This document shows positions 3,312 through 34,200 of a stretch of 64,000 nucleotides of DNA, in pieces. Both the position numbers and the translations under genes were made by a program. The stretch's first letter is position 1, and each line of letters starts with the position of its first letter. Under the pieces are notes generated by a model. The model was not told the DNA's origin and searched no databases. It was given only the letters and a program-made list of their open reading frames with translations. This DNA comes from Streptomyces sp. NBC_00539. GTDB taxonomy: Bacteria; Actinomycetota; Actinomycetes; Streptomycetales; Streptomycetaceae. The stretch lies in assembly GCF_036346105.1 (NCBI RefSeq), contig NZ_CP107811.1, positions 4,421,501 to 4,485,500 of the forward strand, read 5' to 3'.

Positions 3312-4310
3312 ATGATCACCACTACGCCCCAGCGGCTGGCCCGGCGCCAGCTCAACCTGGCCACCCGGCACCAACTCACCACCACGGCCGGAGTACCCGA
3401 CGGCACGATCACCTCCCGCACCCGCCCGGGCGGGCCCTGGCAGCGCTTACTGCCCCGGGTCTACCTCCTCCAGACCGGTCCCCCCGACCACCGTCAACGC
3501 GCCCTCGCCGCCGTCCTGTACGCCGCCGAGCCCGCCTCCGACCCCCTGTCGGGCGACACGGCCGCCCTCACCGGCGGCGCCGCGCTCGCCCTGCTCGGCA
3601 TCCGCGAGGCGCCGTACACCCCGGCCGACGTCCTGATCCGCGCCCCGCGCCGGCTCACCGCCACCCCCGAGGTCCGGCCGCTGACCACCTCCCGCTGGCC
3701 GCGCACCATCACCGTGAGCGGCGTCCCGAGCACCCGGCCGGTCCGCGCGGCCGCCGACTTCGCCGCCCGCGCCGACGACCCCGAGCGCATCCGCTCGACC
3801 CTGGCCCACGTCGTCCAGGCCGGCTGGTGCCACCCGCACGACCTGCACGCCGAACTGCGCTCCTCCCGCCTCCTGGGCCGCCCCGCGATCCGCTCGGCGG
3901 CGTCGGAACTCCTGGCCGGCGTCCGCTCGGTCGCCGAAGCCCGGGCCCGCGACACCCTCACCGCGACCGACCTCCCGACCCCGCTGTGGAACGCCCGCCT
4001 CCACACCCCGGACGGCACCTTCCTGGCCAGCCCGGACGCCTACTGGCCCGACGAGGGCGTCGCTCTGGAGATCGACTCCGCCGAGTACCACTACACCCGC
4101 GACGCCTGGCACGCCACCCTCCGCCGCCGCCTGCGCCTGGAGTCCCACGGCGTCCTGGTGGTCAGCGCGACCCCCTCCATGATCCGCGACACCCCCACCG
4201 AAGTCATCGCCGCCCTCCGCACCCTCCTCACCCTCACCACCCCCCGCCCCCACCCCCCAACCGCTACCGCCCGCGGCCACCAGCAGCTCTTCCTCCCCCT
4301 TCAGTCCTGA
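3312..4310 (+). CDS. AbiEi-like/DUF559-type protein
   Basis: A 332-residue protein. The N-terminal 60 residues (QLTTTAGVPDGTITSRTRPGGPWQRLLPRVYLL) resemble the winged-helix AbiEi_4 antitoxin-type domain. The C-terminal part (YWPDEGVALEIDSAEYHYTRDAW, then RLRLESHGVLVVSATP) has the layout of DUF559/Vsr-like PD-(D/E)xK folds, with an E-x-D pair after a hydrophobic strand. Such fusions are common single genes in Actinobacteria, usually with no AbiEii toxin beside them, and none is visible here. It converges with the next gene, overlapping it by 10 bases. Confidence 0.6.
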   Translation: MITTTPQRLARRQLNLATRHQLTTTAGVPDGTITSRTRPGGPWQRLLPRVYLLQTGPPDHRQRALAAVLYAAEPASDPLSGDTAALTGGAALALLGIREAPYTPADVLIRAPRRLTATPEVRPLTTSRWPRTITVSGVPSTRPVRAAADFAARADDPERIRSTLAHVVQAGWCHPHDLHAELRSSRLLGRPAIRSAASELLAGVRSVAEARARDTLTATDLPTPLWNARLHTPDGTFLASPDAYWPDEGVALEIDSAEYHYTRDAWHATLRRRLRLESHGVLVVSATPSMIRDTPTEVIAALRTLLTLTTPRPHPPTATARGHQQLFLPLQS

Positions 4311-5098
4311 GCGGCTGCCGACAGCAGATAAGCGACATCCATGTGCTGCCCGGCTTTGTGCAGTGCGGCGGTGATGTTCAGAACCGCCTGCCTGTCTGCC
4401 CGCTCGCTCGCGCTGGAAAGTACTGTTTCCGCCGCTGCGTCCTTGCCCGCCGTACGGCAGGATGCGACGGCTTCCACGACCTCACTCGGGGAAGCCGTGC
4501 TTCCCACCCGCCACAGCATCACGCCGGCGTCGCGAGTCCGGCCGGTGGCGAAATAGCGGAGAACGGTCTCAAGCTCGGTCCAGGCTGGGCCAGCTTGTTC
4601 CGTGCTCTGCCGGTCCCCCTCCGGCAGGGGGACCGGCAGAGCAGCAGGTACCACTGCCGACGCGTCAGGCCGTACATGTACTCGTGCTCGGGGCCGCACG
4701 ATCCGCCGCGGCCGGACGGTCGGCGAAGCCGGCGCGACGGTGACGCTGCTGGCGGGCCTGCTCCTTGCGGTCGGCGAAGCGGCGACGGTGTGGCGGCAGC
4801 AGGGGCAGTGCCGTGCCGCAGCGTGCTCGCGAAGAGTGCGCAGTTCTTCGTAGGTGCACGGCAGCGTATGCCCAGCGGCCAGGGCCTCTGGTTCGATCAC
4901 CTCGAAAAGGCTCTTGAGCAGCGACTCTTCCGGGACGCGGCCGCCGTTCAGGTGATTGGACAAGGTGGTCGGCGCGATGTTCGCATCCGAGGCGATGGCT
5001 GCCTGGGTCCGCTCACTGCACTCGCGTAGCAGGCGTAACTTCGCGACCAGTACGCGGTGCGGAACGGAGAGTCCCGGCGGCAAGCTCTTCCACTTCAT
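4301..5098 (-). CDS. XRE-type helix-turn-helix regulator
   Basis: About 265 residues. The N-terminus MKWKSLPPGLSVPHRVLVAK followed by the ERTQAAIASDANIAPTTLSNHLNG helix-turn-helix matches a Streptomyces regulator family that starts with M-x-W-x-x-LP. The middle is an Arg/Pro-rich linker holding CPCCRH, a possible metal or redox cluster. The C-terminus (AVASCRTAGKDAAAETVLSSA, then HMDVAYLLSAA) is a helical sensor-like domain found in such proteins. ATG 5125 is also in frame, but the family start is better matched by ATG 5098. It lies divergent to the HNH-like gene and is a candidate controller of the island. Confidence 0.65.
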   Translation of the reverse strand: MKWKSLPPGLSVPHRVLVAKLRLLRECSERTQAAIASDANIAPTTLSNHLNGGRVPEESLLKSLFEVIEPEALAAGHTLPCTYEELRTLREHAAARHCPCCRHTVAASPTARSRPASSVTVAPASPTVRPRRIVRPRARVHVRPDASAVVPAALPVPLPEGDRQSTEQAGPAWTELETVLRYFATGRTRDAGVMLWRVGSTASPSEVVEAVASCRTAGKDAAAETVLSSASERADRQAVLNITAALHKAGQHMDVAYLLSAAAQD

Positions 5099-5334
5099 CG
5101 GTCTAGGTGACAACGCGACCCCCATCGTGCATCAGCAACTGGCTTTCTGAGCATGCCTGTTCACAGGGGCAGCGCGAAGGCGTCTGGAGCTTTCACCTGC
5201 CCTCGAAATGCTCAAGAGGGGTAGACGGTGACTAGCCGTCAGGCAAAGCTTGGTGCTGTCCGCAAGCGCTGTCCGGTGAGTAATCCCGCCCAGCCGGATT
5301 CAGGACGACCTCTGCCGGAAGAAGGAGTTATTCA

Positions 5335-6009
5335 ATGGCGCTGCCGTCATGGACGGATACGAAGCTGGGGACCATGAAGCGTGCCGCGTTGTGGCTCGTC
5401 TCCGTCGTCGGGGAAGGGAACACCTTCACCAAGGAAAACGTCAAGGAGGCGTTTCCGGGTGTGAGCCAGGCTGATCGCCGGGTTCGTGACTTGCGCAAGC
5501 ACGGATGGCGCATCGACACGAACCGGGAGGATTCCAGCCTGGGGCAGCATGAGCAGCGGTTCGTCGCGCAGGGCGAGCCGGTCTGGCAGCCGGGCAAGGG
5601 GAGTGTGCCGGCTCAGTCCCTCACGGATACGCAGCGACGCGAAGTCCTGGCGCGGGACGGCCACTTCTGCCGTTCGTGCGGCATCGCGCCCGGCGAAGAA
5701 TATCCCGGCACTTACCAGTCGGCGCAGCTGGACATTGCCCGTCGGCCCGTGAAGCAGAGTGACGGGACGGTCCAGGTGGAGAACGTGGCTGAGTGCAACC
5801 GCTGCCGAGTGGGTGGGCGGGGCAAAGAGGCTGACGTGCAGGCACTGATCGTGGGAGTCAGCAGGCTGGCCCCCATGGAACGGGCGATGCTCAGCGACTG
5901 GATCGACGCGGACCAGAGGGAGTTCGGCACGGTCGAACGGTACTGGGCCGACTACCGGACCCTGCCGGCCGAGTCGAGGGAGAAAGTCCGTAAGGCGCTC
6001 AGTGACTGA
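5335..6009 (+). CDS. Degenerate HNH-fold protein with N-terminal winged helix
   Basis: 224 residues. Residues 1-65 look like a winged helix (RRVRDLRKHGWRIDT). Residues 97-165 form a treble-clef HNH-like module: RDGHFCRSCG with C112 and C115, VENVAECNRC with N150, C154 and C157. The usual first histidine (D-H in a strand before P) is absent; the aligned segment reads LDIARRP. The zinc scaffold and the N are therefore kept but the metal-activating His is not. It may bind DNA without cutting, or use other residues. A GAAGGAG box precedes the ATG, and the gene leads the ParB-SNF2 set by 80 bases. Confidence 0.6.
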   Translation: MALPSWTDTKLGTMKRAALWLVSVVGEGNTFTKENVKEAFPGVSQADRRVRDLRKHGWRIDTNREDSSLGQHEQRFVAQGEPVWQPGKGSVPAQSLTDTQRREVLARDGHFCRSCGIAPGEEYPGTYQSAQLDIARRPVKQSDGTVQVENVAECNRCRVGGRGKEADVQALIVGVSRLAPMERAMLSDWIDADQREFGTVERYWADYRTLPAESREKVRKALSD

Positions 6010-6092
6010 ATCTAGCCGTTGAGGCCGGCCGGGGCGGCAAGCGCGTCCCCGGCCGTGTCTGCCCGTGTTTCGATATGGAGGGATTACATACT

Positions 6093-7508
6093 GTGAGTAC
6101 GGATTTCGGGCGGCCGCCGCGCGCTCCGCAGAATCGCGCGCTCGTGAACGAGAGGCTCAGGGAAGCCGAAGCCGGCACAGGCCTGCAGGAGACGCTGACC
6201 ATCGAGTGGCGCACCAAGCCGCATGTCGTTCAGGTCATCGACATGCCGGTGGACGGAGTGTTCTACAACCCTGCGACCCACAGGATCCGTGCCCAGCGCA
6301 GTTTCGATCCTGACCGGGACCGGCAGCTCGTGGCTGATCCGTGGAGTCCAGAGAGCCAGGATTATCTGCATGACCTTCTTCAGGCGTCTCCCTCGAACCC
6401 GGCCAAGCGGGACACGGAGTTCGAGGACCTCAAGAGCAGCCTCAAGGAGTACCGGCAGAACGAGCCGGGGCTCATCACCCGCGACGGAGTGCTCGTCAAC
6501 GGGAACACCCGTGTGGCCGCTCTGCGCGAACTCGGGGTCAGCAGCGTCCGTGTGGGCGTTCTGCCGGAGTCCTGCACCTGGGACGACATCAACGCGGTTG
6601 AGCTGTCACTCCAGCTGAGGCACGACACGCGGCGCCCGTACTCCTACATCAACCGGCTCCTCACCATCGAGGAGCAGGTGGCTCACCGGCCGCTCGCCGA
6701 CATTGCAAGAGACTTCCGCATCAGGGTTTCGACGGCCGAGCAGGATCTGTGGGTCCTCGCATGCCTCCGGGACCTGGCGGAGCGGTCCCGTGCCGGCAGC
6801 AAGGCGCAGCTCCGCTTGATGGACTTCGAGGATGCCCAGGAGAAGCTCCGCGAGCTGCACCGCGCCTACAGCAAGGAATCGAAGCAGAACCCGGATCGGG
6901 CAGAACTGGTCAAGGAGAACAAGCTCGCCCTGATCGTCCTCGAATTCTCGAAGACCGACGTACGTCTCGCGGAGGCGGACTTCCGGACCCGCTACCTCGA
7001 GAACCGGCTGCCGGGCGAACTCAATGCCGCCCTCGTTGCCGCGCCGGCGCGGACGATTCCGGGCATCAACCGCGGGGTCCGGGGGGACTCGGCTCAAGTG
7101 GCTGCGGCGAAGGCGTTCACCGACGTGCTTCTGCGGGCCAAGGCGGTTCAGCGGTCCGTCGATGTGGTGAGCGTCCCGGAAGCCCAGGAGGCGGCTGCCA
7201 CGTGGCAGAAAGCCAGAGAAGCTGTGAACGAGGCTCTTGTGCCGGCCGGCAAAGATGCGCGCGTGCAGAAGCGGAAGCAGGCTGCGCCCGACCGCCTCAA
7301 CGATGCCTGTGAGGACATCAATCAGTGCGTGACGGACATGGCGTTGGCCCGTGCGTCGCGGAGCCTGGATGACGACGCGCTGGAAGAGGCGGTGGTCGCG
7401 CTCAAGGGAAGCCTGACCAAGCTGGCGCGGGAGGCCGCACGCAGCATCACTGTCCCGGGTGACGGCATCGCTTGGCTTCTTGAAGCGGTAAAGCTGGAGG
7501 GAGTGTGA
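6093..7508 (+). CDS. ParB/sulfiredoxin-fold nuclease-like protein
   Basis: About 471 residues from GTG 6093. That start is chosen because GGAGGG at 6077-6082 sits 10 bases upstream, while the in-frame ATG 6075 overlaps the box itself. The fold is marked by GLITRDGVLVNGNTRVAALRELG (around residues 127-148), the ParB-type G-N-x-R nucleotide-binding/nuclease motif. The following helical region includes RRPYSYINRLLTIEEQVAHRPLADIARDF, resembling the ParB helix-turn-helix portion. The C-terminal 150 residues are helical and unfamiliar. It overlaps the SNF2 gene by 4 bases (GTGA), so the two products are probably made together. Confidence 0.7.
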   Translation: MSTDFGRPPRAPQNRALVNERLREAEAGTGLQETLTIEWRTKPHVVQVIDMPVDGVFYNPATHRIRAQRSFDPDRDRQLVADPWSPESQDYLHDLLQASPSNPAKRDTEFEDLKSSLKEYRQNEPGLITRDGVLVNGNTRVAALRELGVSSVRVGVLPESCTWDDINAVELSLQLRHDTRRPYSYINRLLTIEEQVAHRPLADIARDFRIRVSTAEQDLWVLACLRDLAERSRAGSKAQLRLMDFEDAQEKLRELHRAYSKESKQNPDRAELVKENKLALIVLEFSKTDVRLAEADFRTRYLENRLPGELNAALVAAPARTIPGINRGVRGDSAQVAAAKAFTDVLLRAKAVQRSVDVVSVPEAQEAAATWQKAREAVNEALVPAGKDARVQKRKQAAPDRLNDACEDINQCVTDMALARASRSLDDDALEEAVVALKGSLTKLAREAARSITVPGDGIAWLLEAVKLEGV

Positions 7509-9328
7509 CGGCGCTCGGGGAACCGTCTCTGCGTGTGGGTTTCGACGTGTCCCGCACCAAGGCGGTTCTCCGCGCCGGAGAGGCGTTCCGTGCGGAACTG
7601 ACGCATCTGGCGGCTCGTTTCCCGGGTGGTGGCCAGCGGGGGCCGCTGGCGATGGAGCTGTCTCTCGATGAATTCCTCGCAGGGATCGATTCTCTCGCTG
7701 ACTGGCCGCATCCTGACTCGGTCGAATGGGAGGAAGAGCTAGCGGAACTCGTCAATGGAGTCCTGGACGACGCGGACCGCGCCGAGGAGCACCTGCGATG
7801 TGGTCCGGCCGCCTCACCGGTTGAACTGGATGGTCTCGATGCGACGCTCGGCGGTGGGTGGTGCGCGAACCTCACGGATTTCCAGCGAAGGGACATTGCC
7901 AGGCTGCTTTCGTTGCGCCATGGCGCGAACTTCAGCGTCCCGGGTGCGGGTAAGACCCGTGTGGGCCTCGCTGTCTACGCGGCGATGAAAGAGGCGGGCG
8001 AGGCGCGGCGCTTGCTCGTGGTGTGCCCGAAATCCGCTTATGAGTCCTGGCTATCCGAGGCCCGCCAGTGCTTCAATGAGCCCCCCGTCACCCAGGTTAT
8101 GGCCAGGTATCCGGGTATCGGCGCAGAAGTCATTCTCGTGAATTACGAGCGGCTGGACCGGTCTCTGAACGAGCTGGCGGAGTGGCTGCGCGCCGTGCCC
8201 TCCATGGTGATTCTCGATGAGGCCCACAGGATGAAACTCGGCACGCAGGGAACTTACGGCAGTGCCTGCATGGCGTTGGGGCCGATCAGCCGCCGTCGGC
8301 TCATCCTGACCGGTACCCCCGCTCCGAACGGGGCACGTGATCTTGAAAACCTGCTCTCGTTCGTCTGGCCGGGCCACGGGCGCAGGGTGGTCACCCAGGC
8401 TGTCGCCGGAGGGGACCTCGCGCATGCAAGCTCCGTTCTGAAGCCGCTCTTCACGCGCACAACGAAGCAGGAGCTGGGCTTGCCGCCCTTCCAGCCCCGT
8501 ATCCGCTACGTCAAGTTGCCGGATCTCCACCGTGAGGTCTACGACGCCCTGGTCGGCCGCTTCACAGCCCGTGCCGAACTCTCACGAGCGGATTTCGATG
8601 CACTGGGGAAAGCGATGCTGCGTCTGCTGATGGCCGCCACCAGCCCGGCCCTCCTCATTGAGGGGGGCAGCAAGTACGAGCCCCTGAGCTACCGCGTGCC
8701 GCCGCTGGAGGTCCCGGAGGGTGAGCCGCTGTTCGCTCTCATGCGTAACCTTCCGCAGCACGAGCTGTCTCCCAAGTACACGGAGACGATTAACATCGTT
8801 GCCGAAAACGCCGCCTTGGGGCGCAAGACGCTTATCTGGTCGACTTTCGTCCGGAGCATCACCACTCTCGAAAGCCTTCTGTCGGCCTACGGGCCGGCGG
8901 TGGTCTATGGCGGGACGGCCGACCGCGAAGAGCAGATCCGGCGTTTCAGGGAGGATCCGGACTGTCACGTGCTCATCTCCAACCCGTCCACGCTGGGTGA
9001 AGGGATCAGCCTCCACCACGAGTGCCACGACGCCGTCTACGTGGACCGTGATTTCATGGCCGGACGCTTCTTGCAGAGCCTCGACCGAATCCACCGCCTG
9101 GGCCTCGCACCCGGTACTGAGACGCGGGTCACGGTGCTGGCGGCCGAAGGGACGATCGACGAGGTGGTCGCGATGCGGCTTGAAGCCAAACTGGAGTTCA
9201 TGGGCGCGATCCTTGATGACCCCTCGGTCCGGGAACTCGGTGATCTGCAGGAGGAGCCGTCGGTCGCCGGTGGGATGGATATGGCTGACGTCCGCGCGCT
9301 CCTTGAACACGTAGGTGCCTCCTGGTGA
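7505..9328 (+). CDS. SNF2-type DEAD/DEAH-box ATPase
   Basis: 607 residues from GTG 7505, overlapping the ParB-like stop. Superfamily 2 motifs are complete: Walker A FSVPGAGKT (143-151), motif II DEAH (238-241), motif III LTGTPAPNG (268-276), and motif VI QSLDRIHRLG (524-533) with the arginine finger. There is no recognisable nuclease domain, and the 120-residue N-terminus is unassigned. SNF2-type ATPases beside DNA methyltransferases usually translocate on duplex DNA in defence or remodelling. Position immediately before the methyltransferase suggests one functional unit. Confidence 0.85.
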   Translation: MTALGEPSLRVGFDVSRTKAVLRAGEAFRAELTHLAARFPGGGQRGPLAMELSLDEFLAGIDSLADWPHPDSVEWEEELAELVNGVLDDADRAEEHLRCGPAASPVELDGLDATLGGGWCANLTDFQRRDIARLLSLRHGANFSVPGAGKTRVGLAVYAAMKEAGEARRLLVVCPKSAYESWLSEARQCFNEPPVTQVMARYPGIGAEVILVNYERLDRSLNELAEWLRAVPSMVILDEAHRMKLGTQGTYGSACMALGPISRRRLILTGTPAPNGARDLENLLSFVWPGHGRRVVTQAVAGGDLAHASSVLKPLFTRTTKQELGLPPFQPRIRYVKLPDLHREVYDALVGRFTARAELSRADFDALGKAMLRLLMAATSPALLIEGGSKYEPLSYRVPPLEVPEGEPLFALMRNLPQHELSPKYTETINIVAENAALGRKTLIWSTFVRSITTLESLLSAYGPAVVYGGTADREEQIRRFREDPDCHVLISNPSTLGEGISLHHECHDAVYVDRDFMAGRFLQSLDRIHRLGLAPGTETRVTVLAAEGTIDEVVAMRLEAKLEFMGAILDDPSVRELGDLQEEPSVAGGMDMADVRALLEHVGASW

Positions 9329-9447
9329 GGTAACCGTCACCTGAGCGGCACGGGGCGAGTGGGCTTGGTGCGAGGCGGTTCGGTGCCCGGATGTCGGTGG
9401 CGGATGCGACACTTGCCTGTCTGCATCAGCCACACCAGGAGGACTCG

Positions 9448-10653
9448 ATGGATGCCAGCGAGCACACGCTGACCTCGATTGAGATTTGCGCGGGAGCCGG
9501 GGGTCAAGCCATCGGCCTCCACCAGGCCGGGTTCAGCCACCTGGCGCTCGTGGAGATCGACCGGAACGCCGCGAAGACCTTGACCCACAACATCGAGCGC
9601 CGGCCCGGGTGGAGTTTCGAGCGGAAGTACTGCGAGATCATCACTGGGGACGTCAAGGACTTCGAGCCCGAGAACCTCAAGAAGGCCTTGGACCACTTCG
9701 GTCATCCGATCGAGCCAGGCGATGTAGACCTGCTTGCTGGCGGTGTCCCGTGCCCTCCGTTCTCCCATGCCGGAAAGCAGCTGGGAAAGGACGACGAGCG
9801 TGACCTTTTCCCGACGATGCTTGATCTGGTCGACCGGATCCATCCGAAGGTGGTGATGATCGAAAACGTCAGGGGCATCAAGGACGAAAAGTTCCAAGAT
9901 TACCGCGACTATGTGGTGGCCCGCCTGGAGGGTGGCCGGGCGAAGGATCCAGTCGACGGCATCACGCGGGATTTCGAAGGTGCCGGATACAAGGTCTGCG
10001 GCTGGAAGATTCTGGAAGCGAGCAATTTCGGGGTTCCGCAGCTCCGGCCGCGCGCCATTCTCGTCGCCATCGATGCGGGCGTGCTGGGTGACCTGGAGTT
10101 CGAGTGGCCTGCCGCTAAGACTGCTGATGTACCGGTAAGTGTTTTCCGGGCTCTTGAGGAGAGCATGGAGAATCGATTCGCGCCTCTGCTGAAAATGGGC
10201 GGCGACATCCAAGTTCGCGCTCAGGAGCGTCTTGAGCGGTGGCGCAAGCTCGCGGGGGAAGCCCAGGACCTGAAAAAGGGTGGAGGAGTCGCCCCGACGC
10301 TGGTTGGTGGTTCGAAGAAGCACGGCGGAGCTGATCTCGGGCCGAGCAGGGCCAAGGCGGCATGGGCAAGCCTTGGCGTCTCCGGCCTGGGCGTGGCCAA
10401 CGAAGCGGTGATGAGCCTCGCCAAGGAAACCTTTGAGCGTGACCTCCTGCGCCCTGACGGCCCCATGCTCACAGTTTCCCAGGCAGCGATCATCCAGGGC
10501 TTCCCAGAAGAGTGGGAGTTCGACGGCGGGAAGACCGCTCAGTACCGGCAGGTCGGCAACGCCTTCCCGCCGCCGGTCGCGAAGGCCGTGGGCGAAGCGA
10601 TCGCTGACGTACTCCGTGCCGCCCACAAGCGAGACCAGGCGAGCCGCCCGTAG
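9448..10653 (+). CDS. DNA (cytosine-5) methyltransferase, probably protecting the NaeI-type target
   Basis: 401 residues. ATG 9448 is chosen because AGGAGG lies just upstream; an ATG at 9391 is in frame but lacks a site. Motif I is EICAGAGGQAIGL (12-24). Motif IV is GGVPCPPFSHAG with catalytic Cys102. Motif VI is ENVRG (139-143), motif VIII QLRPRAIL, and motif X QVGNAFPPPVA. It transfers methyl from AdoMet to C5 of cytosine. The NaeI homologue encoded nearby suggests GCCGGC as the target, but specificity is inferred from that neighbour alone. It converges on vsr with a single base between stop codons. Confidence 0.9.
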   Translation: MDASEHTLTSIEICAGAGGQAIGLHQAGFSHLALVEIDRNAAKTLTHNIERRPGWSFERKYCEIITGDVKDFEPENLKKALDHFGHPIEPGDVDLLAGGVPCPPFSHAGKQLGKDDERDLFPTMLDLVDRIHPKVVMIENVRGIKDEKFQDYRDYVVARLEGGRAKDPVDGITRDFEGAGYKVCGWKILEASNFGVPQLRPRAILVAIDAGVLGDLEFEWPAAKTADVPVSVFRALEESMENRFAPLLKMGGDIQVRAQERLERWRKLAGEAQDLKKGGGVAPTLVGGSKKHGGADLGPSRAKAAWASLGVSGLGVANEAVMSLAKETFERDLLRPDGPMLTVSQAAIIQGFPEEWEFDGGKTAQYRQVGNAFPPPVAKAVGEAIADVLRAAHKRDQASRP

Positions 10654-10654
10654 C

Positions 10655-11116
10655 TCAGCCGGCCTCGGGTCCGCTGCTTCCCAGACGGCTCCGGACCGCA
10701 TCAGCGATCCGGGCCGCGCAGACAGCTGAGTCTTGGTGTTCCCAGAATCGCAGGACCAGCCAGCCCGTCTCCACGAGTTTCGCGTCGGTATCCCGGTCAC
10801 GCGCTACGTTCCGCGCGACCTTTTCCGACCAGTAGCCGGAGTTGGTTTTCGGCGGCACATAGTGCTCGGGGCAGCCGTGCCAGTAGCAGCCATCGATGAA
10901 GACAGCCACCTTCGCCGGACGGAACACCATGTCAGCCGTCCGGCGAAGACCAGGCAGCGGCTTAGCTGCCACCCGGTACCGCAGGCCCTGCGCGTGCACG
11001 AGCCTGCGCACTAGCTGTTCAGGCTTGGTGTCACGGCTCCGGATCGCTTGCATGTTGCGCCGCCGGGCGGCTGAGGAAGCCCAAGAACCCGCAGGGCGGT
11101 CCCAGTCTTCAGTCAT
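10655..11116 (-). CDS. vsr: Very short patch repair (Vsr) endonuclease
   Basis: 153 residues, close to the usual length. The family is recognised from NMQAIRSRDTKPEQLVRRLVH, the catalytic aspartate in TADMVF (D62), the zinc/catalytic cluster FIDGCYWHGCPEH (74-85), and GWLVLRFWEH near the end. Vsr nicks DNA 5' of a T:G mismatch produced when 5-methylcytosine deaminates, starting repair to C:G. This limits mutation at sites methylated by the partner enzyme. Its placement tail-to-tail with the methyltransferase is a recurrent arrangement for C5 restriction-modification systems. Confidence 0.92.
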   Translation of the reverse strand: MTEDWDRPAGSWASSAARRRNMQAIRSRDTKPEQLVRRLVHAQGLRYRVAAKPLPGLRRTADMVFRPAKVAVFIDGCYWHGCPEHYVPPKTNSGYWSEKVARNVARDRDTDAKLVETGWLVLRFWEHQDSAVCAARIADAVRSRLGSSGPEAG

Positions 11117-11145
11117 GGTGCTGTTCCGCTCCCAGGTGTCTCACG

Positions 11146-11440
11146 TCAGCCCGAGCCCTGCGGGCGCTCAGGGCACATCATCCAATCTACGACGCTCGCA
11201 TCGCTGCCATGCGTCTGAGGTGCCCCCGCCGTGCGGGAGAGCCGCTGACGCACTCGATCTTCATCAGCATCCACGAGGTCTCGGCGAGGGTGTACTCCAG
11301 CGCGGACAGGCCCGTCGGCGTCGGCCTGCCGGATGCAGGTCCGCAGAGCCTCGTGGAGCACGCCGAGATCCTCGGCCATACTGCGGATCAAGGGCTTCGG
11401 CTCGGCAGTCCGGTACGTCTGCACCACCGATGGGGGAGCC
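11146..11440 (-). pseudogene. Remnant of an IS3-type transposase orfA
   Basis: Between vsr and the NaeI-like gene, the minus strand encodes EPKPLIRSMAEDLGVLHEAL followed by RTCIRQADADG. This matches the helix-turn-helix/leucine-zipper start of IS3-family OrfA (pattern I-x-x-V-A-x-D-L-G-x-x-x-E-x-L-R-x-W-V-R-Q). No intact upstream or downstream part is present, and after the ADADG the frame loses similarity. A neighbouring frame reads LSALEYTLAETSWMLMKIE and is unassigned. No terminal inverted repeats were found. The remnant accounts for most of the 324-base gap. Confidence 0.5.
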
Positions 11441-12412
11441 TCATTCGCTGTCCGTGTGCTTGGGCAGAAACGGAGCTGCCTCCACGGGGTCACCGTCGTC
11501 GGCGAGCACCCAGGAACGGCCGTCCAGCTCGACGCGGGGGCGGCCGGCGTGATGCGGCCGCGCCGAAGCGACCCGGAAGCTGACCAGTTCACCCTGTCTC
11601 GGCACAGCCACACCCAGCTCCCTTGCGATCGCCTGATGGCTGCTGAAGTGGCCGGGGATCAGCAATCCCTCCTCCCGCAGCACGGTGCGTGCCCGCCCTT
11701 TGGCCTCGCGGACCCGCGCCATGTAGTCGCTCTGCTGCGCCACGGTCCGGATGACACCTCGGCCTATTCTTCTCCGCTGTACCCGCCGGAACAGTTCATT
11801 CACGCGCTTCTGCCCGGACGCCAGAGAGAGGATGGCGTTACGTGTGTCCTCCGGTAGGTGCAGGAGAACGTTCTCTGGGAGCTCTGCGTGATGCCAGAGC
11901 CAGAGAATCTTGTTCCTGTGCTCTGCCTTCACCATGAGTTTCAAGTCGCGGTTCTTCCGACCGGTCAGCCATGCCTCCTCGATACGCAGCAGCCCTGCGC
12001 TCCAGCGGCTAGCGAGGTCGTCGGCCCAGACCAGCAGGCACAGGTGGCCAACTGCTTCTGGCGGGATCATCCAGTTGCCGAGCCGCTGCGAGTACTTGCA
12101 GTCGACGTCCGCACCAGCGATCCGGTAATCCATCGCGACGCCGTCGTCAAAACTGAACTCCCGCTGCAGATTGATCTCTACGAGCGTTCCCGCATGCGTC
12201 TTCTCCGTCTTGTACAGCTTCTCCCACTCGTACCGTCCGGTGACCTCACCGTTCAGTAGTTGGTCGATGGTGTCACGCAAGACCTGGGCGAAACGCAGGC
12301 CCGTGGGGTCCAGGCGGAGCAGCTGCGCATGTACGGCCCACAACTCAGGGTCGCTGTGAAGAGACGCCTGAGCATGGATGTTGGCGGCGGCCGAGACTTC
12401 CGGTTGCAGCAA
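11441..12412 (-). CDS. NaeI-family type IIE restriction endonuclease
   Basis: Up to 323 residues, near NaeI's 317. From memory of NaeI, the match runs almost end to end: LRDTIDQLLNGEVTGR, KTEKTHAGTLVEINLQREF, ADVDCKY, WMIPPEAVGHLCLLVWA, RVNELFRRV and GDPVEAAPFLP. The NaeI active-site residues E70, D86, D95 and K97 correspond to E79, D95, D104 and K106 here, all present. NaeI cuts GCCGGC when a second copy is bound at an effector domain. The start is uncertain: TTG 12412 is the first candidate, and the nearby CTG 12409 is possible. The gene may be read from a promoter within or before the SEC-C gene 37 bases upstream. Confidence 0.88.
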   Translation of the reverse strand: MLQPEVSAAANIHAQASLHSDPELWAVHAQLLRLDPTGLRFAQVLRDTIDQLLNGEVTGRYEWEKLYKTEKTHAGTLVEINLQREFSFDDGVAMDYRIAGADVDCKYSQRLGNWMIPPEAVGHLCLLVWADDLASRWSAGLLRIEEAWLTGRKNRDLKLMVKAEHRNKILWLWHHAELPENVLLHLPEDTRNAILSLASGQKRVNELFRRVQRRRIGRGVIRTVAQQSDYMARVREAKGRARTVLREEGLLIPGHFSSHQAIARELGVAVPRQGELVSFRVASARPHHAGRPRVELDGRSWVLADDGDPVEAAPFLPKHTDSE

Positions 12413-12449
12413 GAGCAGACCTGCCCGAGGTGACGTCGTGGTTGCGGGG

Positions 12450-13457
12450 TCAGAAGCGCTGGGCTTCGCCGTGGCACTCCGGGTAGGGCTTGCCCAAGGT
12501 GCACCAGCAGGGGGAGGTGGGGGTGGGGGGCCAGGGGGTGGCTTTGCCGCGGGCGGCGAGGGTGGTGGCGTATTCCGCCAGGAGGCTGGGGGAGGCCGGG
12601 GAGGTCTTCTCGGAGGCCGCGAAGGCCTCGTACGAGGGGACGCTCGCGGTGACGATGCCGAGGTTGGTGGTGCCGGAGGCCGCCAGGGCGCGGAGGGACG
12701 CTTCGATCTGTTCCAGGTGCTGCGCGTGCGAGGGGTATTCCGCGGCGAGCGTCGGGTAGCTGGTCAGGAGTTCGGCCAGTTCACGCTGGGGCCAGTGGAG
12801 GATCGCCACCGGGAAGGGGCGGGAGAGGGCGGCGCGGCGGTCGCCCAGTTCGGCGCGGAGACGGGCGATCTCGGCGCGGAGCTCGGCCGGGTCGTCGGAG
12901 CCCAGGGCCCAGATGCGCTTCGGGTCGTGGAGCTCGTCCAGCGGGATCGGGCCGATGTGGCGGGTGTCCGCGACCATGTCCCAGTCGTCGTGGGGGCGTC
13001 CGAGGAGGCGCCGGACGCGGTGGCGGCCCGTGAGGAGGGCGGTGGTGGCCTGGGTGAGGGGGGTGTTCTCCGGGATGAGGAGGGTCGCCGCCTGCGTGAA
13101 GCACTCTTCCGAGGCGGTCAACTCGTCGTGGTTCTCCAGGGCTTCCGCGATGACCTCCCAGGGGGCCGGGTCCGCGGGGGCCGCCGTGCGGATGCCCTGG
13201 ATCAGGGCGCGGGCCTCGGCCTCGTGGCCGTACTCCCAGAGGTTCGAGGCCTGGAGCGCCTTGATCAGGTGCGGGTCGTCGGGCTCGGAGGCCAGGAGCC
13301 GGTCGTAGAGCGCGCTTGCCCGTTCCCGTTCGTCGGCCAGTTCGAGGTGGGCCGCGGCCTGGAGGAGCAAGGGCTCCTGGTCCTCGGGGTAGCGGGTCGC
13401 CGTGCGGATGAGGCGCTCGGCTTCGGCGATGTGCTCGGCAGGCGTGTCGGGGCGCAT
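12450..13457 (-). CDS. TPR-like protein with C-terminal SEC-C motif
   Basis: 335 residues. Residues 5-140 are TPR-like helices (EAERLIRTATRYPEDQEPLLLQAAAHLELADERERASALYDRLLASEPDDP). The C-terminus SPCWCTLGKPYPECHG (about 317-332) is a SEC-C-type zinc motif (C-W-C, later C-H), as found at the end of SecA. Function is unknown; such proteins are single genes in many Streptomyces. The composition is typical of the chromosome, so the island boundary falls between this gene and the endonuclease. Its start is 44 bases from the divergent sortase start. Confidence 0.7.
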   Translation of the reverse strand: MRPDTPAEHIAEAERLIRTATRYPEDQEPLLLQAAAHLELADERERASALYDRLLASEPDDPHLIKALQASNLWEYGHEAEARALIQGIRTAAPADPAPWEVIAEALENHDELTASEECFTQAATLLIPENTPLTQATTALLTGRHRVRRLLGRPHDDWDMVADTRHIGPIPLDELHDPKRIWALGSDDPAELRAEIARLRAELGDRRAALSRPFPVAILHWPQRELAELLTSYPTLAAEYPSHAQHLEQIEASLRALAASGTTNLGIVTASVPSYEAFAASEKTSPASPSLLAEYATTLAARGKATPWPPTPTSPCWCTLGKPYPECHGEAQRF

Positions 13458-29802: not shown

Positions 29803-31260
29803 ATGACGACGCAGCCTCCGGTGCATGTGCAGACGGCGCCATCGATGCCGATGCCGATGCCGATGCCGGTCTTCGAGGAGTACGAGCCCGCGGGCGACTG
29901 TGTCTGCCTGGGCTGTGTGCACCGGCGCCGCACCCTCGCCCGCGGGCGGGCCACAGCGCTCCGGGACGGCGGGCCCCCGGGCGCGCGCGGCGCCCGACGC
30001 GCGCTGGTGGTGGCCACCGCGGCGGGTGTGGTGCTGAGCGGTGGCGGCGCGACCGCACTGGCCACGGCCCGCCCGGCACCCGGCCCGAGCCCGGTCCCGG
30101 TGGCGCCGACACCGCCGAGGCCCCCGGCGGACGGGCCCGGGTCTCCGCAGGGCGTACCGGCGCCGCTGCACGGGCCGAAGGGATCGCCCGCCAAGCCGCC
30201 GGGCCGGCCGGGTGCGCCCGCGACGGTGAGACGGATCGACCGCTCGACGATCATCAACCGGGCCAAGGTGTGGCTGGAGCAGCAGGTTCCGTACAGCATG
30301 TCCGACTACTGGTCGGACGGCTACCGGCAGGACTGCTCGGGCTTCGTCTCGATGGCCTGGAACCTCGGCACGAACGAATGGACCGGCAGCCTCGACAAGT
30401 TCGCCAAGAAGATCACCAAGGAGGAACTGCTGCCGGGGGACATGCTCCTCTTCCACAACCCCTCCGACCCCAACAACGGCTCGCACGTCACCCTCTTCGG
30501 CGGCTGGGTCGACGAGACGCGCACGAGCTACGTCGCCTACGAGCAGACCCGCCCGACGACGCGCAAGCTCGCTACGCCGTACGGGTACTGGAACAACGCG
30601 ACGAAATACCTCCCGTACCGCTTCACGGGCGTGACCGGCGGGCTCCTGCCGGACGCCCCGGGGACCGACCCGAAGCCGGCTGCTCCGTCCGCGTTCCCCG
30701 GCGCGAAGATGTTCGGGCCGGGCGCGAACAACGAGTACGTGGCGCGCCTGGGCCGGATGCTGATCGACCGGGGCGGGCGGCGCTTCTACCCCAAGGGACC
30801 GAGCACGAAGTGGAGCGAGTCGGACCGGCTCGCCACGCAGGCCTTCCAGCAGGCCCAGGGCTGGACGGGCGCCGAAGCCGACGGCATCCCGGGGGCGCAC
30901 ACGTGGCGGCTGCTGGTGGAGGGCCAGGGCAACGACATCATCCCGACGCCGGACGCCGCCCCGGGCCCCGGCGGCCACCCCGCGCACCCGTCCCCGGGTG
31001 CGTCCGGCCCGGCGGCGGGCGCGCCCGCCTACCCGGGGCCGGGGGCCTTCCGGCCGGGGCGGTCGGGCCCGGCGGTCGCCGCGCTCGGGCGGCAGTTGAT
31101 GGCCAAGGGGTTCGGCAAGCACTACACGTCCGGCCCGGGCTCCGTATGGGGCGAGGAGGACCGGCGCAACGTCGAGGCCTTCCAGCGCGCGCAGGGCTGG
31201 CGCGGGGCGTTGGCCAACGGTTATCCGGGCCCGGAAACCTGGCGCCGGCTGTTCGCATGA
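29803..31260 (+). CDS. NlpC/P60-like protein with two peptidoglycan-binding domains
   Basis: 485 residues. The N-terminus is Met/Pro-rich with C-V-C-L-G-C, then one membrane helix (65-87). A Pro-rich linker leads to a cysteine peptidase-like core: DCSGFVSMAW (C178) and SHVTLFGGW (H228). Two peptidoglycan-binding modules follow (about 305-370 and 425-485; RLGRMLIDRGGRR, WSESDRLATQAFQQAQGW). It should act at the cell wall. ATG 29803 is used as start; the upstream in-frame extension runs into tRNA-promoter DNA. Confidence 0.82.
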   Translation: MTTQPPVHVQTAPSMPMPMPMPVFEEYEPAGDCVCLGCVHRRRTLARGRATALRDGGPPGARGARRALVVATAAGVVLSGGGATALATARPAPGPSPVPVAPTPPRPPADGPGSPQGVPAPLHGPKGSPAKPPGRPGAPATVRRIDRSTIINRAKVWLEQQVPYSMSDYWSDGYRQDCSGFVSMAWNLGTNEWTGSLDKFAKKITKEELLPGDMLLFHNPSDPNNGSHVTLFGGWVDETRTSYVAYEQTRPTTRKLATPYGYWNNATKYLPYRFTGVTGGLLPDAPGTDPKPAAPSAFPGAKMFGPGANNEYVARLGRMLIDRGGRRFYPKGPSTKWSESDRLATQAFQQAQGWTGAEADGIPGAHTWRLLVEGQGNDIIPTPDAAPGPGGHPAHPSPGASGPAAGAPAYPGPGAFRPGRSGPAVAALGRQLMAKGFGKHYTSGPGSVWGEEDRRNVEAFQRAQGWRGALANGYPGPETWRRLFA

Positions 31261-31271
31261 CGGAGGCAACG

Positions 31272-34200
31272 ATGTACCCCACGCGCACCACGACCACCAC
31301 GGGCACGTTCCCCGTCCCCGCGGCGGAGCGACCCCCCACCGCCGGCCGGCCCCCGCGCCCGGGCCGCTGGACCACCCACCGCCCGACACCCGCCCCGCCC
31401 CCGGAGGCGGTGGGCCCGGTCCAGGCCCCGGGCGCGGCCCCGGCTGCGGGAGTGACCCCGGCCCCGGGCGTGACCCCGGCCCCGGCTGTGGTCCCGGCTG
31501 CGGGGGCTCCGGTTCCGGCCCCGGGGGTAGCTCCGGCCGTGACCCCGGCCCCCGCTGTGATCCCGACTCCCGGGGCGGCTCCGGCCCCGGCCCTGGCGGG
31601 GGCCTCGGCGGCGGGGCCGGCCCGGACGGGGACTCCGGCCCCGGTGTGGCCCGCACCACCGGCCCGGACCCAGGCGCCGGATGCGGCGCGCATGGCGGAA
31701 CCGGCCCCCGTGCCGGCTGGAAGCCCGGGTCCGAGCCTGGCCCCTGCCCGGGCGGGGGCCTCGGCGGTGACTCCGCCCCAGGCCCCGGATCCGGCCGCCC
31801 GGACGGAGGCCTCCGGCTGGATGGCGGCTCCAGCGGCTGCGGCCCAGAGGGAGGTGCCGGCCCCGGTCTGGCCCCCGTCCCCGTTCCGGACGGAGGCACC
31901 GACGGCCGCGCCCGTGAACCCGTCCGTGGAGCGGAGCATGTCCGCTGCCGGGACGGCTGCCGCTGACCGGACGGTGACCCCGTTCCCGGCGGTGGCTCCG
32001 CCGCACACCCCGGCCCGGACGGAGGCACCGGTGGTGGCTCCGGTCCCGGTCCAGGACCCGGGGGAAGGTGCGGGCCTGAGCCCGGCCCCGGCCCCGATGG
32101 CTTCGCCTCAGTCCCCCGCCCGGGCGGAGGACTTGGGCGGCACTGCAGTTCCCGCTCCGGGGCCGGGTGGACGCCCGGGCCTGAGCCAGGCTCCCGCCCG
32201 GGCCGTGGCACCGGCCGCCGCCCCCGCTCCGGTCCGGTCCGCACCTGCGGCCAGGACGGACGCCCCGGGCCCGACTCCGGCGGCGCCCGTGAGCGTGTCC
32301 TGTGCCGTGACGACTGCCGCGGTCCCGGCGGTGCCTTCGGCCGCGGCCGCGCCTCTGGAGCCGCTCCGGGAGCCGGGTCGTTCCCCTGCCGGGGCGGCCG
32401 CCTGGACGTCGGCGCCGACGGACGCTCCGTACCAGGCCCCGGCTCTGGCCGCCCTGCGTGCGGCCTCGCAATCGAGCCGGCCTCTTGTCGGGACGGCCGC
32501 CTCGTTCTCGGCCGTGCCCGTGAGCCCGTACCAGGGGCGGAGTGCTTCCCCTGCCCGGGGGACGGGCTCGGCCGGTGTCCCGGCGGTGGCTTCGCCTCAG
32601 GCCCCGGCCCCGGCCGACACGACGGGCGCGTCGGCGGTGCCGGCCTGGCCCGCGCCCGCCCGGAGGGAGGCGTCGGCAGAAGCTGCGGCCGGGTACCCGA
32701 ACCCGTCCCGCGCGTCAGGCTCGTCGGCTGCCGGCACGGCCGCCCGGGCGTCCACCCCGGCGGTGGCACCGCCCCCGTTCCCGGGGCCGGGCACGGCTTC
32801 GGCGGTGTCCCGGGCTCGTACGGAGACGCCGGCCATGTCCGCGTTTCCGGCGCGGGCGGAGGAGCCTGAGGCGGCAACGGCTTCGCCGCAGGCCCCGGCC
32901 GCGGCTTCGGCGGCAGCGGCGCCCGCCCCGGGCCGGGCGCAGGCCCCCGACGTGGCGGTGAACCCCGTTCCGGCGGGGGTCCGTTACCCGGAGCCGGCCA
33001 TGCCCCCGGCCCCGCCCCGGGATCCGGCGGCAACGACCGGGGTACCGGCCGCGGAGTCGGCCCCGGCGCCGCGGGCGGCTGCGGCCCCCGACCGGGCCCG
33101 GGCGCAGGCCCCGGCGTCGGCCCCCGACGTGGCGGTGAACCCCGTTCCGGCGGGGGTCCGTTACCCGGAGCCGGCCATGCCCCCGGCCCCGCCCCGGGAT
33201 CCGGCGGCAACGACCGGGGTACCGGCCGCGGAGTCGGCCCCGGCGCCGCAGGCTGCTGCGGCCCCCGACCGGGCCCGGGTGCAGGCCCCGGCGCAGGCCC
33301 CCGACGTGGCGGCGAACCCCGCTCCGGCGGCGGCCCGTCACCCGCACCCGGCGTCGGCCCCCGACGTGGCGGCCGACCCGCACCCGCACCCGGCGTCGGC
33401 CCCCGACGTGGCGGCCGACCCGCACCCGCACCCGGCCGCCACCGCCCCCGAGCGGCATGACCGGTCCGGGGTCGTCGAGGGGCCGCGCGACCCGGCGGGC
33501 GAGGAGGCGAGGACGCACCCCGAGGCGATCCCGGCCGCGCGGGGGCAGGCGGAGGGCGGCGCGTACCGGGCCGCCGGGCAGCGGCAGAGGTCCGTCGTCG
33601 ACCTCGTGGCCCGGGCCGTCGCCCGGGTGATGGACCCCGGGGTCCGGGACGACCCCGCCCCCGGCCCCCGCCCCGAACCCGAGCCCGGCCCCCGCCCCGA
33701 CCCCGAGCCCGTCCGCGGGACCGCCGTCACCGAGGTCCCCGTACACCTGCCGTTCCTCGGCCACCCCCGCCCGGCCCTCCCGGCCCCGCACCCCCGCCGG
33801 CAGCCCCCCGCGCCCCCGGCCGTCCGACCGGCCCCCGCCGGCCGCCGCGTCCCCCGGGGCGACGACGGCCTCCGCGAGCACCGCGGCCCCGTCCTGCCCG
33901 GCTGGTGTGCCGTCGGCATCGGCGCCCTCGCCCTCACCGGCTGCGCCGCGGTGCTCTGGCGGGCCGGCGCCACCCCCGACCTCCTCGCCGTGGCCTTCGG
34001 CGCGGCCCCCCGCGCCTACCACGGGCTGCCCGCCACCTCCTGGCCCCCGCTCGCCTTCCTCGGCGTCGTGGCCCTGCTCGCCCTCGGCGGACTCGGCCGC
34101 GCCAAGGCGGGTCACGCCTGGGTGCTGACCCTGTTCGGCCGCTACCGCGGCACCGTCCGGCGGACCGGTCTCACCTGGGTCAGCCCGCTCCTGCTCCGCC

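Follow-up and report, generated by a model that had tools for sequence, protein, structure and literature searches.

In the restriction systems CglI and NgoAVII, a C5-cytosine methyltransferase is accompanied by a site-binding R-protein and a separate SF2 ATPase (PMC4267653; this and the other papers given by PMC number are cited from parts of their text). ATP hydrolysis by the CglI complex requires unmodified sites, NgoAVII being less strict, and an R-protein whose active site has been mutated so that the nuclease is dead still triggers the ATPase (PMC4267653). The MORC/paraMORC restriction neighbourhoods predicted by Iyer in 2008 contain a cytosine methylase, Vsr, a SWI2/SNF2 helicase, HNH nucleases, and GHKL ATPases (PMC2292703). 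Here, we describe a module in Streptomyces sp. NBC_00539 that is comparable to both. It lies in a stretch of 64,000 nucleotides (positions 4421501-4485500 of the 7.5-Mb genome, contig NZ_CP107811.1), which is called the window below. Its center is a trio of an HNH-like protein (HNH1), a ParB-fold protein, and an SNF2-type ATPase, accompanied in the window by a C5 methyltransferase, Vsr, and a homologue of the restriction enzyme NaeI. CglI and NgoAVII are the closest tested precedent, with the methyltransferase, a separate site-binding protein (in the module a putative reader), and an ATPase in common. Compared with MORC/paraMORC, the window has ParB in place of the GHKL ATPase, its HNH protein is degenerate, and the nuclease is exchanged between loci. 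No GHKL or HATPase match was found when the seven proteins of the island and one from its flank were scanned. A neighbor of the module at locus L102 matches HATPase_c_2 at 2.9e-8, and the cluster to which this neighbor belongs is represented in 20 of 62 loci.

In type IV restriction by GmrSD and SspE, a ParB/Srx-fold NTPase works with an HNH domain. The module differs in having separate proteins, a ParB that resembles Spo0J, Noc, and KorB with a helix-turn-helix (HTH) region, an HNH protein without the catalytic histidine, and an SNF2 motor. Proteins P0001 and P0002 gave no match to DUF262 or DUF1524 with an E-value limit of 1. GmrSD is described in PMC5512222, where ParB-fold DNases and SNF2 proteins beside methylases are also discussed for polyvalent phage proteins. 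ParB-CTPase-fold proteins outside segregation carry the ParB fold and a conserved Box II arginine (PMC12704722). Both features are shared by the module ParB, whereas the main text of that paper does not mention SNF2. According to PADLOC, the SNF2-type helicases of DISARM, Dpd, Zorya, Hma, and Druantia II match the module SNF2 in part. However, DrmD of DISARM scored only 33.7 bits against a cut-off of 610, and DruE of Druantia II appeared neither in the 19 PADLOC matches of P0003 nor in the matches of P0001 and P0002, despite the match of the methyltransferase to DruM2. The literature on BREX, phosphorothioate, and NTP-dependent conflict systems was also compared (PMC12839542, PMC10853773, and PMC7159879, in part). 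No published description of the module was found in a partial literature search, which did not extend to subscription papers and bioRxiv. Because no description of the trio was found in this literature or in PADLOC, while kindred systems are known, we call the module a variant of ATP-dependent 5-methylcytosine (m5C) restriction.

HNH1, ParB, and SNF2 form a unit, and NaeI is a looser companion. A ParB search of 296 Streptomyces genomes gave matches in 51, of which 43 carry the module at 44 full-length places, three have a distant form, and five have something weak and unrelated. Together with 43 fetched places and ten loci taken from named GTDB contigs, the window gives 54 module loci. All of them contain HNH1 and a methyltransferase, and 52 contain Vsr. 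The ParB and SNF2 genes invariably share a strand, with their matches 0-63 bp apart, and HNH1 runs in the same direction in 48 loci and divergently in six. Inter-locus distances of ParB correlate with those of SNF2 (0.935), HNH1 (0.817), and the methyltransferase (0.679), but weakly with those of Vsr (0.40) and NaeI (0.381, 22 loci). NaeI is missing from 32 of the 54 loci and changes at least nine times along the SNF2 tree (62 proteins, none identical to another). The recurrence of the trio in all 54 loci is not a product of chance. Conversely, among the 46 genomes of the genus sample with NaeI, the module lies within about 10 kb in 17, and 20 of 26 NaeI loci without the trio have both the methyltransferase and Vsr. 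One methyltransferase clade (99/100) is exclusive to the module among 80 rows examined. A regulator matching one of three query regulators occurs within the stretch of 44 of the 54 loci. A mutual exclusion of NaeI and NOV_C was considered from raw counts (Fisher p 0.035) and is not claimed, since independent tree pairs gave a median p of 0.5.

ParB has no credible Pfam match, and a sequence search of the PDB with the HNH and ParB profiles gave no meaningful match, so structure models were needed for both proteins. ParB matches phrog_620 ('ParB-like', 6.7e-9), and its AlphaFold2 model shows a ParB/Srx N-terminal fold with solved ParB proteins as the best matches. The Box II arginine (R146 in NGNTR) is found in 11 of 11 sequences and, in a set of 55 rows, in at least 92%. 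In the region compared by eye with the ENxxR-type C motif, E176, L179, and Q180 are conserved. No ParA match appeared when the same eight proteins (seven from the island, one flanking) were scanned for families; no parS search was made. In SNF2, the motifs GAGKT, DEAH, LTGTP, and DRIHRLG are shared by at least 92% of the 63 rows. We propose that ParB is a nucleotide-gated clamp and SNF2 a double-stranded DNA (dsDNA) motor.

The family matches of HNH1 are weak (HTH_39, 0.0016; phrog HNH, 0.0023). Its four zinc cysteines are present in all 54 loci. Column 136 of the alignment, the position of the catalytic histidine in the HNH motif, holds arginine in 51 sequences and lysine in three. In contrast, a second type of HNH protein (HNH2) has histidine there in seven of seven. 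The 54 HNH1 rows were selected by their position beside ParB and the seven HNH2 loci by best match, independently of the histidine. From these sequences, HNH1 is proposed to be a disabled restriction enzyme that would serve as a sequence reader.

A second lineage shows a similar arrangement. Distant ParB-SNF2 pairs with a downstream NOV_C occur on plasmids of Rhizobium, Kozakia, Mesorhizobium, and Azospirillum and at the Streptomyces loci L122-L124. The protein upstream of the distant ParB is related to a family of type II enzymes (PADLOC PDLC03501, 2.1e-19 to 2.5e-18 in the six scanned). The true enzyme of this family lies directly behind the methyltransferase in Rhizobium (2e-137) and on eight other plasmids aligned. 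These methyltransferase-adjacent copies have HDY...I[E/D]LKG in nine of nine, whereas the ParB-adjacent copies have DT[V/I]Y...[I/V]IQKG in seven of seven, with the acidic residue of ExK lost in all. With the histidine lost in HNH1 and the ExK acid in the PD-(D/E)XK copies, the restriction-enzyme copy preceding the ParB-SNF2 pair looks disabled in two unrelated nuclease folds. In NOV_C, by contrast, D..GYD...ExK is retained, at 85% or more in each column across 25 sequences; this domain (DUF3883) has been named a novel REase domain (PMC3710099, in part). The apparent lack of a methyltransferase on a Kozakia plasmid proved wrong; this gene, together with Vsr and a split enzyme gene, is located in another part of the plasmid. 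On this Kozakia baliensis plasmid (L189:2093-2951), the type II enzyme gene next to the methyltransferase and Vsr is annotated as two open reading frames (ORFs), while ParB, SNF2, and NOV_C are annotated as single ORFs. On a Rhizobium plasmid, two Ku genes (L018:14160-15892) lie downstream of the ParB-SNF2-NOV_C module, at a distance of about 2-4 kb.

The trio may help to distinguish foreign from own DNA. Beyond sequence and fold, we infer a mechanism in which HNH1, or the PD-(D/E)XK copy, would read the target, ParB would be loaded as a clamp, SNF2 would travel on the duplex, and the cut would be made by a nuclease that varies between loci, with the methyltransferase marking self DNA. We give this reading slightly less than an even chance. 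Several observations weigh against it. Fourteen of the 54 loci have none of the five nuclease families sought; 13 of these fall within one clade of 15 rows and therefore count as one or two events. An extra HNH copy at L096, located away from ParB, likewise lacks the histidine. The HNH1 model has a low predicted template modeling score (pTM 0.43) and no strong structural match; Foldseek with this model returned nothing at E ≤ 0.001, and VIA gave only weak rows. A reader is expected to follow the methyltransferase more closely than the other module proteins, but the partial correlations given SNF2 did not show this for HNH1 (0.167, against 0.205 for ParB and 0.318 for Vsr). The ENLQR motif of ParB is altered. 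The ParB-adjacent PD-(D/E)XK copies lose the first acid in the alignment, yet a conserved aspartate two positions earlier (in DT[V/I]Y) might substitute for it. Finally, plasmid L013 of S. albidoflavus carries ParB-SNF2-NOV_C but no HNH1 or other reader, methyltransferase, or Vsr in its 21-kb stretch.

The methyltransferase at every locus would also fit a role in self-protection. A restriction-enzyme copy that has been disabled would naturally compete with the enzyme for its sites, and SNF2 proteins such as Mot1 strip proteins off DNA. The copy could thus shield unmethylated host sites while SNF2 removes restriction enzymes after replication or repair until methylation is complete. This is unlikely, as the 14 loci without the five nucleases sought would face no known threat, the 20 NaeI loci with methyltransferase and Vsr manage without the trio, and the more complete form carries its own nuclease, NOV_C. 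The trio could instead assist Vsr, its companion in nearly all loci, in the repair of T:G mismatches at m5C in bacteria without MutS and MutL; the high-GC actinobacteria are not known to have MutSL. However, most NaeI loci that lack the trio have Vsr as well, the correlation of Vsr with ParB is weak, and NOV_C is left unexplained. In addition, alphaproteobacteria, where distant forms are found, possess MutSL. We therefore regard a repair accessory as quite improbable.

The gene order of the window, with NaeI close to the trio, and the 17 NaeI genomes with a nearby module could suggest a motor that helps a type IIE enzyme to pair two sites. The absence of NaeI from most loci, its low correlation with ParB, and its repeated changes along the SNF2 tree make this very improbable. 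The least probable explanation in our judgment is that unrelated defense genes have merely gathered at a hot spot of integration. In genome G012, this site is occupied by another long ORF, and SEC-C or PrsW genes flank many module loci, but the adjacency of the trio is constant over several sites. Co-residence also leaves the constant methyltransferase, the module-exclusive clade, and the correlated distances unaccounted for.

If the clamp-and-motor reading is true, disabled restriction enzymes have been recycled at least twice, from unrelated folds, to read targets on behalf of a ParB clamp and a DNA motor, and chromosome-segregation clamps have been joined to restriction. It would account for some of the genes labeled 'ParB' and 'SNF2' that adjoin C5 methyltransferases and offer a testable system with exchangeable nucleases. 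Streptomyces is an industrial genus in which restriction hampers genetic work.

Features of the island and its flanking genes (coordinates in the window)
Feature	Coordinates	Strand	Evidence and predicted role
Left flanking chromosomal gene, outside the module	3312..4310	+	Paired with the right flank around another insert in G012
Divergent HTH regulator P0009	4301..5125	-	Left end of island; PF13560 2.5e-6, 28.2 bits (cut-off 27)
HNH1	5335..6009	+	Winged helix plus zinc (4 Cys), degenerate HNH; putative sequence reader
ParB	6075..7508	+	ParB/Srx fold, ParB-type HTH region, helical C-terminus; putative nucleotide-gated clamp
SWI2/SNF2-type ATPase	7505..9328	+	PF00176 2.5e-19; putative dsDNA motor
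C5-cytosine DNA methyltransferase	9391..10653	+	PF00145 1.3e-54; best PADLOC match DruM2 2.8e-107
Vsr mismatch endonuclease	10655..11116	-	PF03852 6e-22; TIGR00632 134.2 bits (cut-off 97.85)
NaeI restriction endonuclease homologue	11441..12412	-	PF09126 1.4e-122; structure 1ev7 1.8e-91
Right flanking SEC-C/TPR gene P0010, outside the module	12450..13457	-	SEC-C weak (0.044), clear in a homologue (5.5e-6); 89% orthologue in G012

The island (about 4296-12467) contains seven genes bounded by two chromosomal genes. The original prediction, made from the sequence of the window, had named six of them, all of which are present at the positions given; its list was incomplete, as the divergent HTH regulator also belongs to the module. 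The families assigned to NaeI, the methyltransferase, Vsr, and SNF2 are borne out by the matches in the table, and the ParB fold by the phrog match and the model described above. The predicted coupling of ParB and SNF2 is a four-base overlap of their reading frames (GTGA), and the low-GC island is seen as a GC content of 0.651 across 4296-12467 against 0.743 for the remaining window. The zinc-binding HNH-like protein has the zinc cysteines but lacks the HNH catalytic histidine. Co-occurrence in other genomes, proposed as a check, holds for the trio, and the idea of an extra layer formed by ParB, SNF2, and HNH is supported in part. In the suggested comparison with defense catalogues, HNH1 matched nothing in PADLOC 2023 with an E-value limit of 0.01, while ParB had only a partial MTase_II match (3.6e-5), SNF2 had partial matches, and the methyltransferase matched DruM2. 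The NaeI alignment to 1ev7 includes the D...DCK stretch, presumably the catalytic residues. In G012, the same two flanking genes are 3.3 kb apart around an insert with a 1051-aa ORF (L185:10770-13925), which, read by eye from its sequence, looks like a PLD-helicase. The site of the island is probably a defense hot spot.

Across 396 genomes from 236 genera, sampled evenly over the phylum, only three matches were found, all in Streptomyces and including the genome of the window itself, so the Streptomyces-type module is rare elsewhere. Single loci occur in Streptacidiphilus, Microbispora, and Nocardia. ParB had zero matches in 50,697 phage records, and none was confirmed in viral contigs. In L011 (Nocardia) and L111 (Streptomyces), NgoMIV replaces NaeI near the module; both enzymes cut GCCGGC. 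Twenty-five of the 54 loci (e.g., L108:4497-6416), the window not among them, have a DUF5753-type HTH regulator near the module regulator, often with an adjoining HATPase-type ATP-binding protein. At L115:12681-14759, a frame that by eye is DUF262-like lies between NOV_C and Vsr. In L106 (1376-7060) and L109 (9105-14769), about 5.7 kb with an HD protein (Pfam match in L106) separates the trio from the methyltransferase, and these inserts also hold genes that by eye are NUDIX-like, HAD-like, and radical-SAM-like. Outside the island, GC content climbs to 0.81-0.845 at 31001-34000, the maximum of the window.
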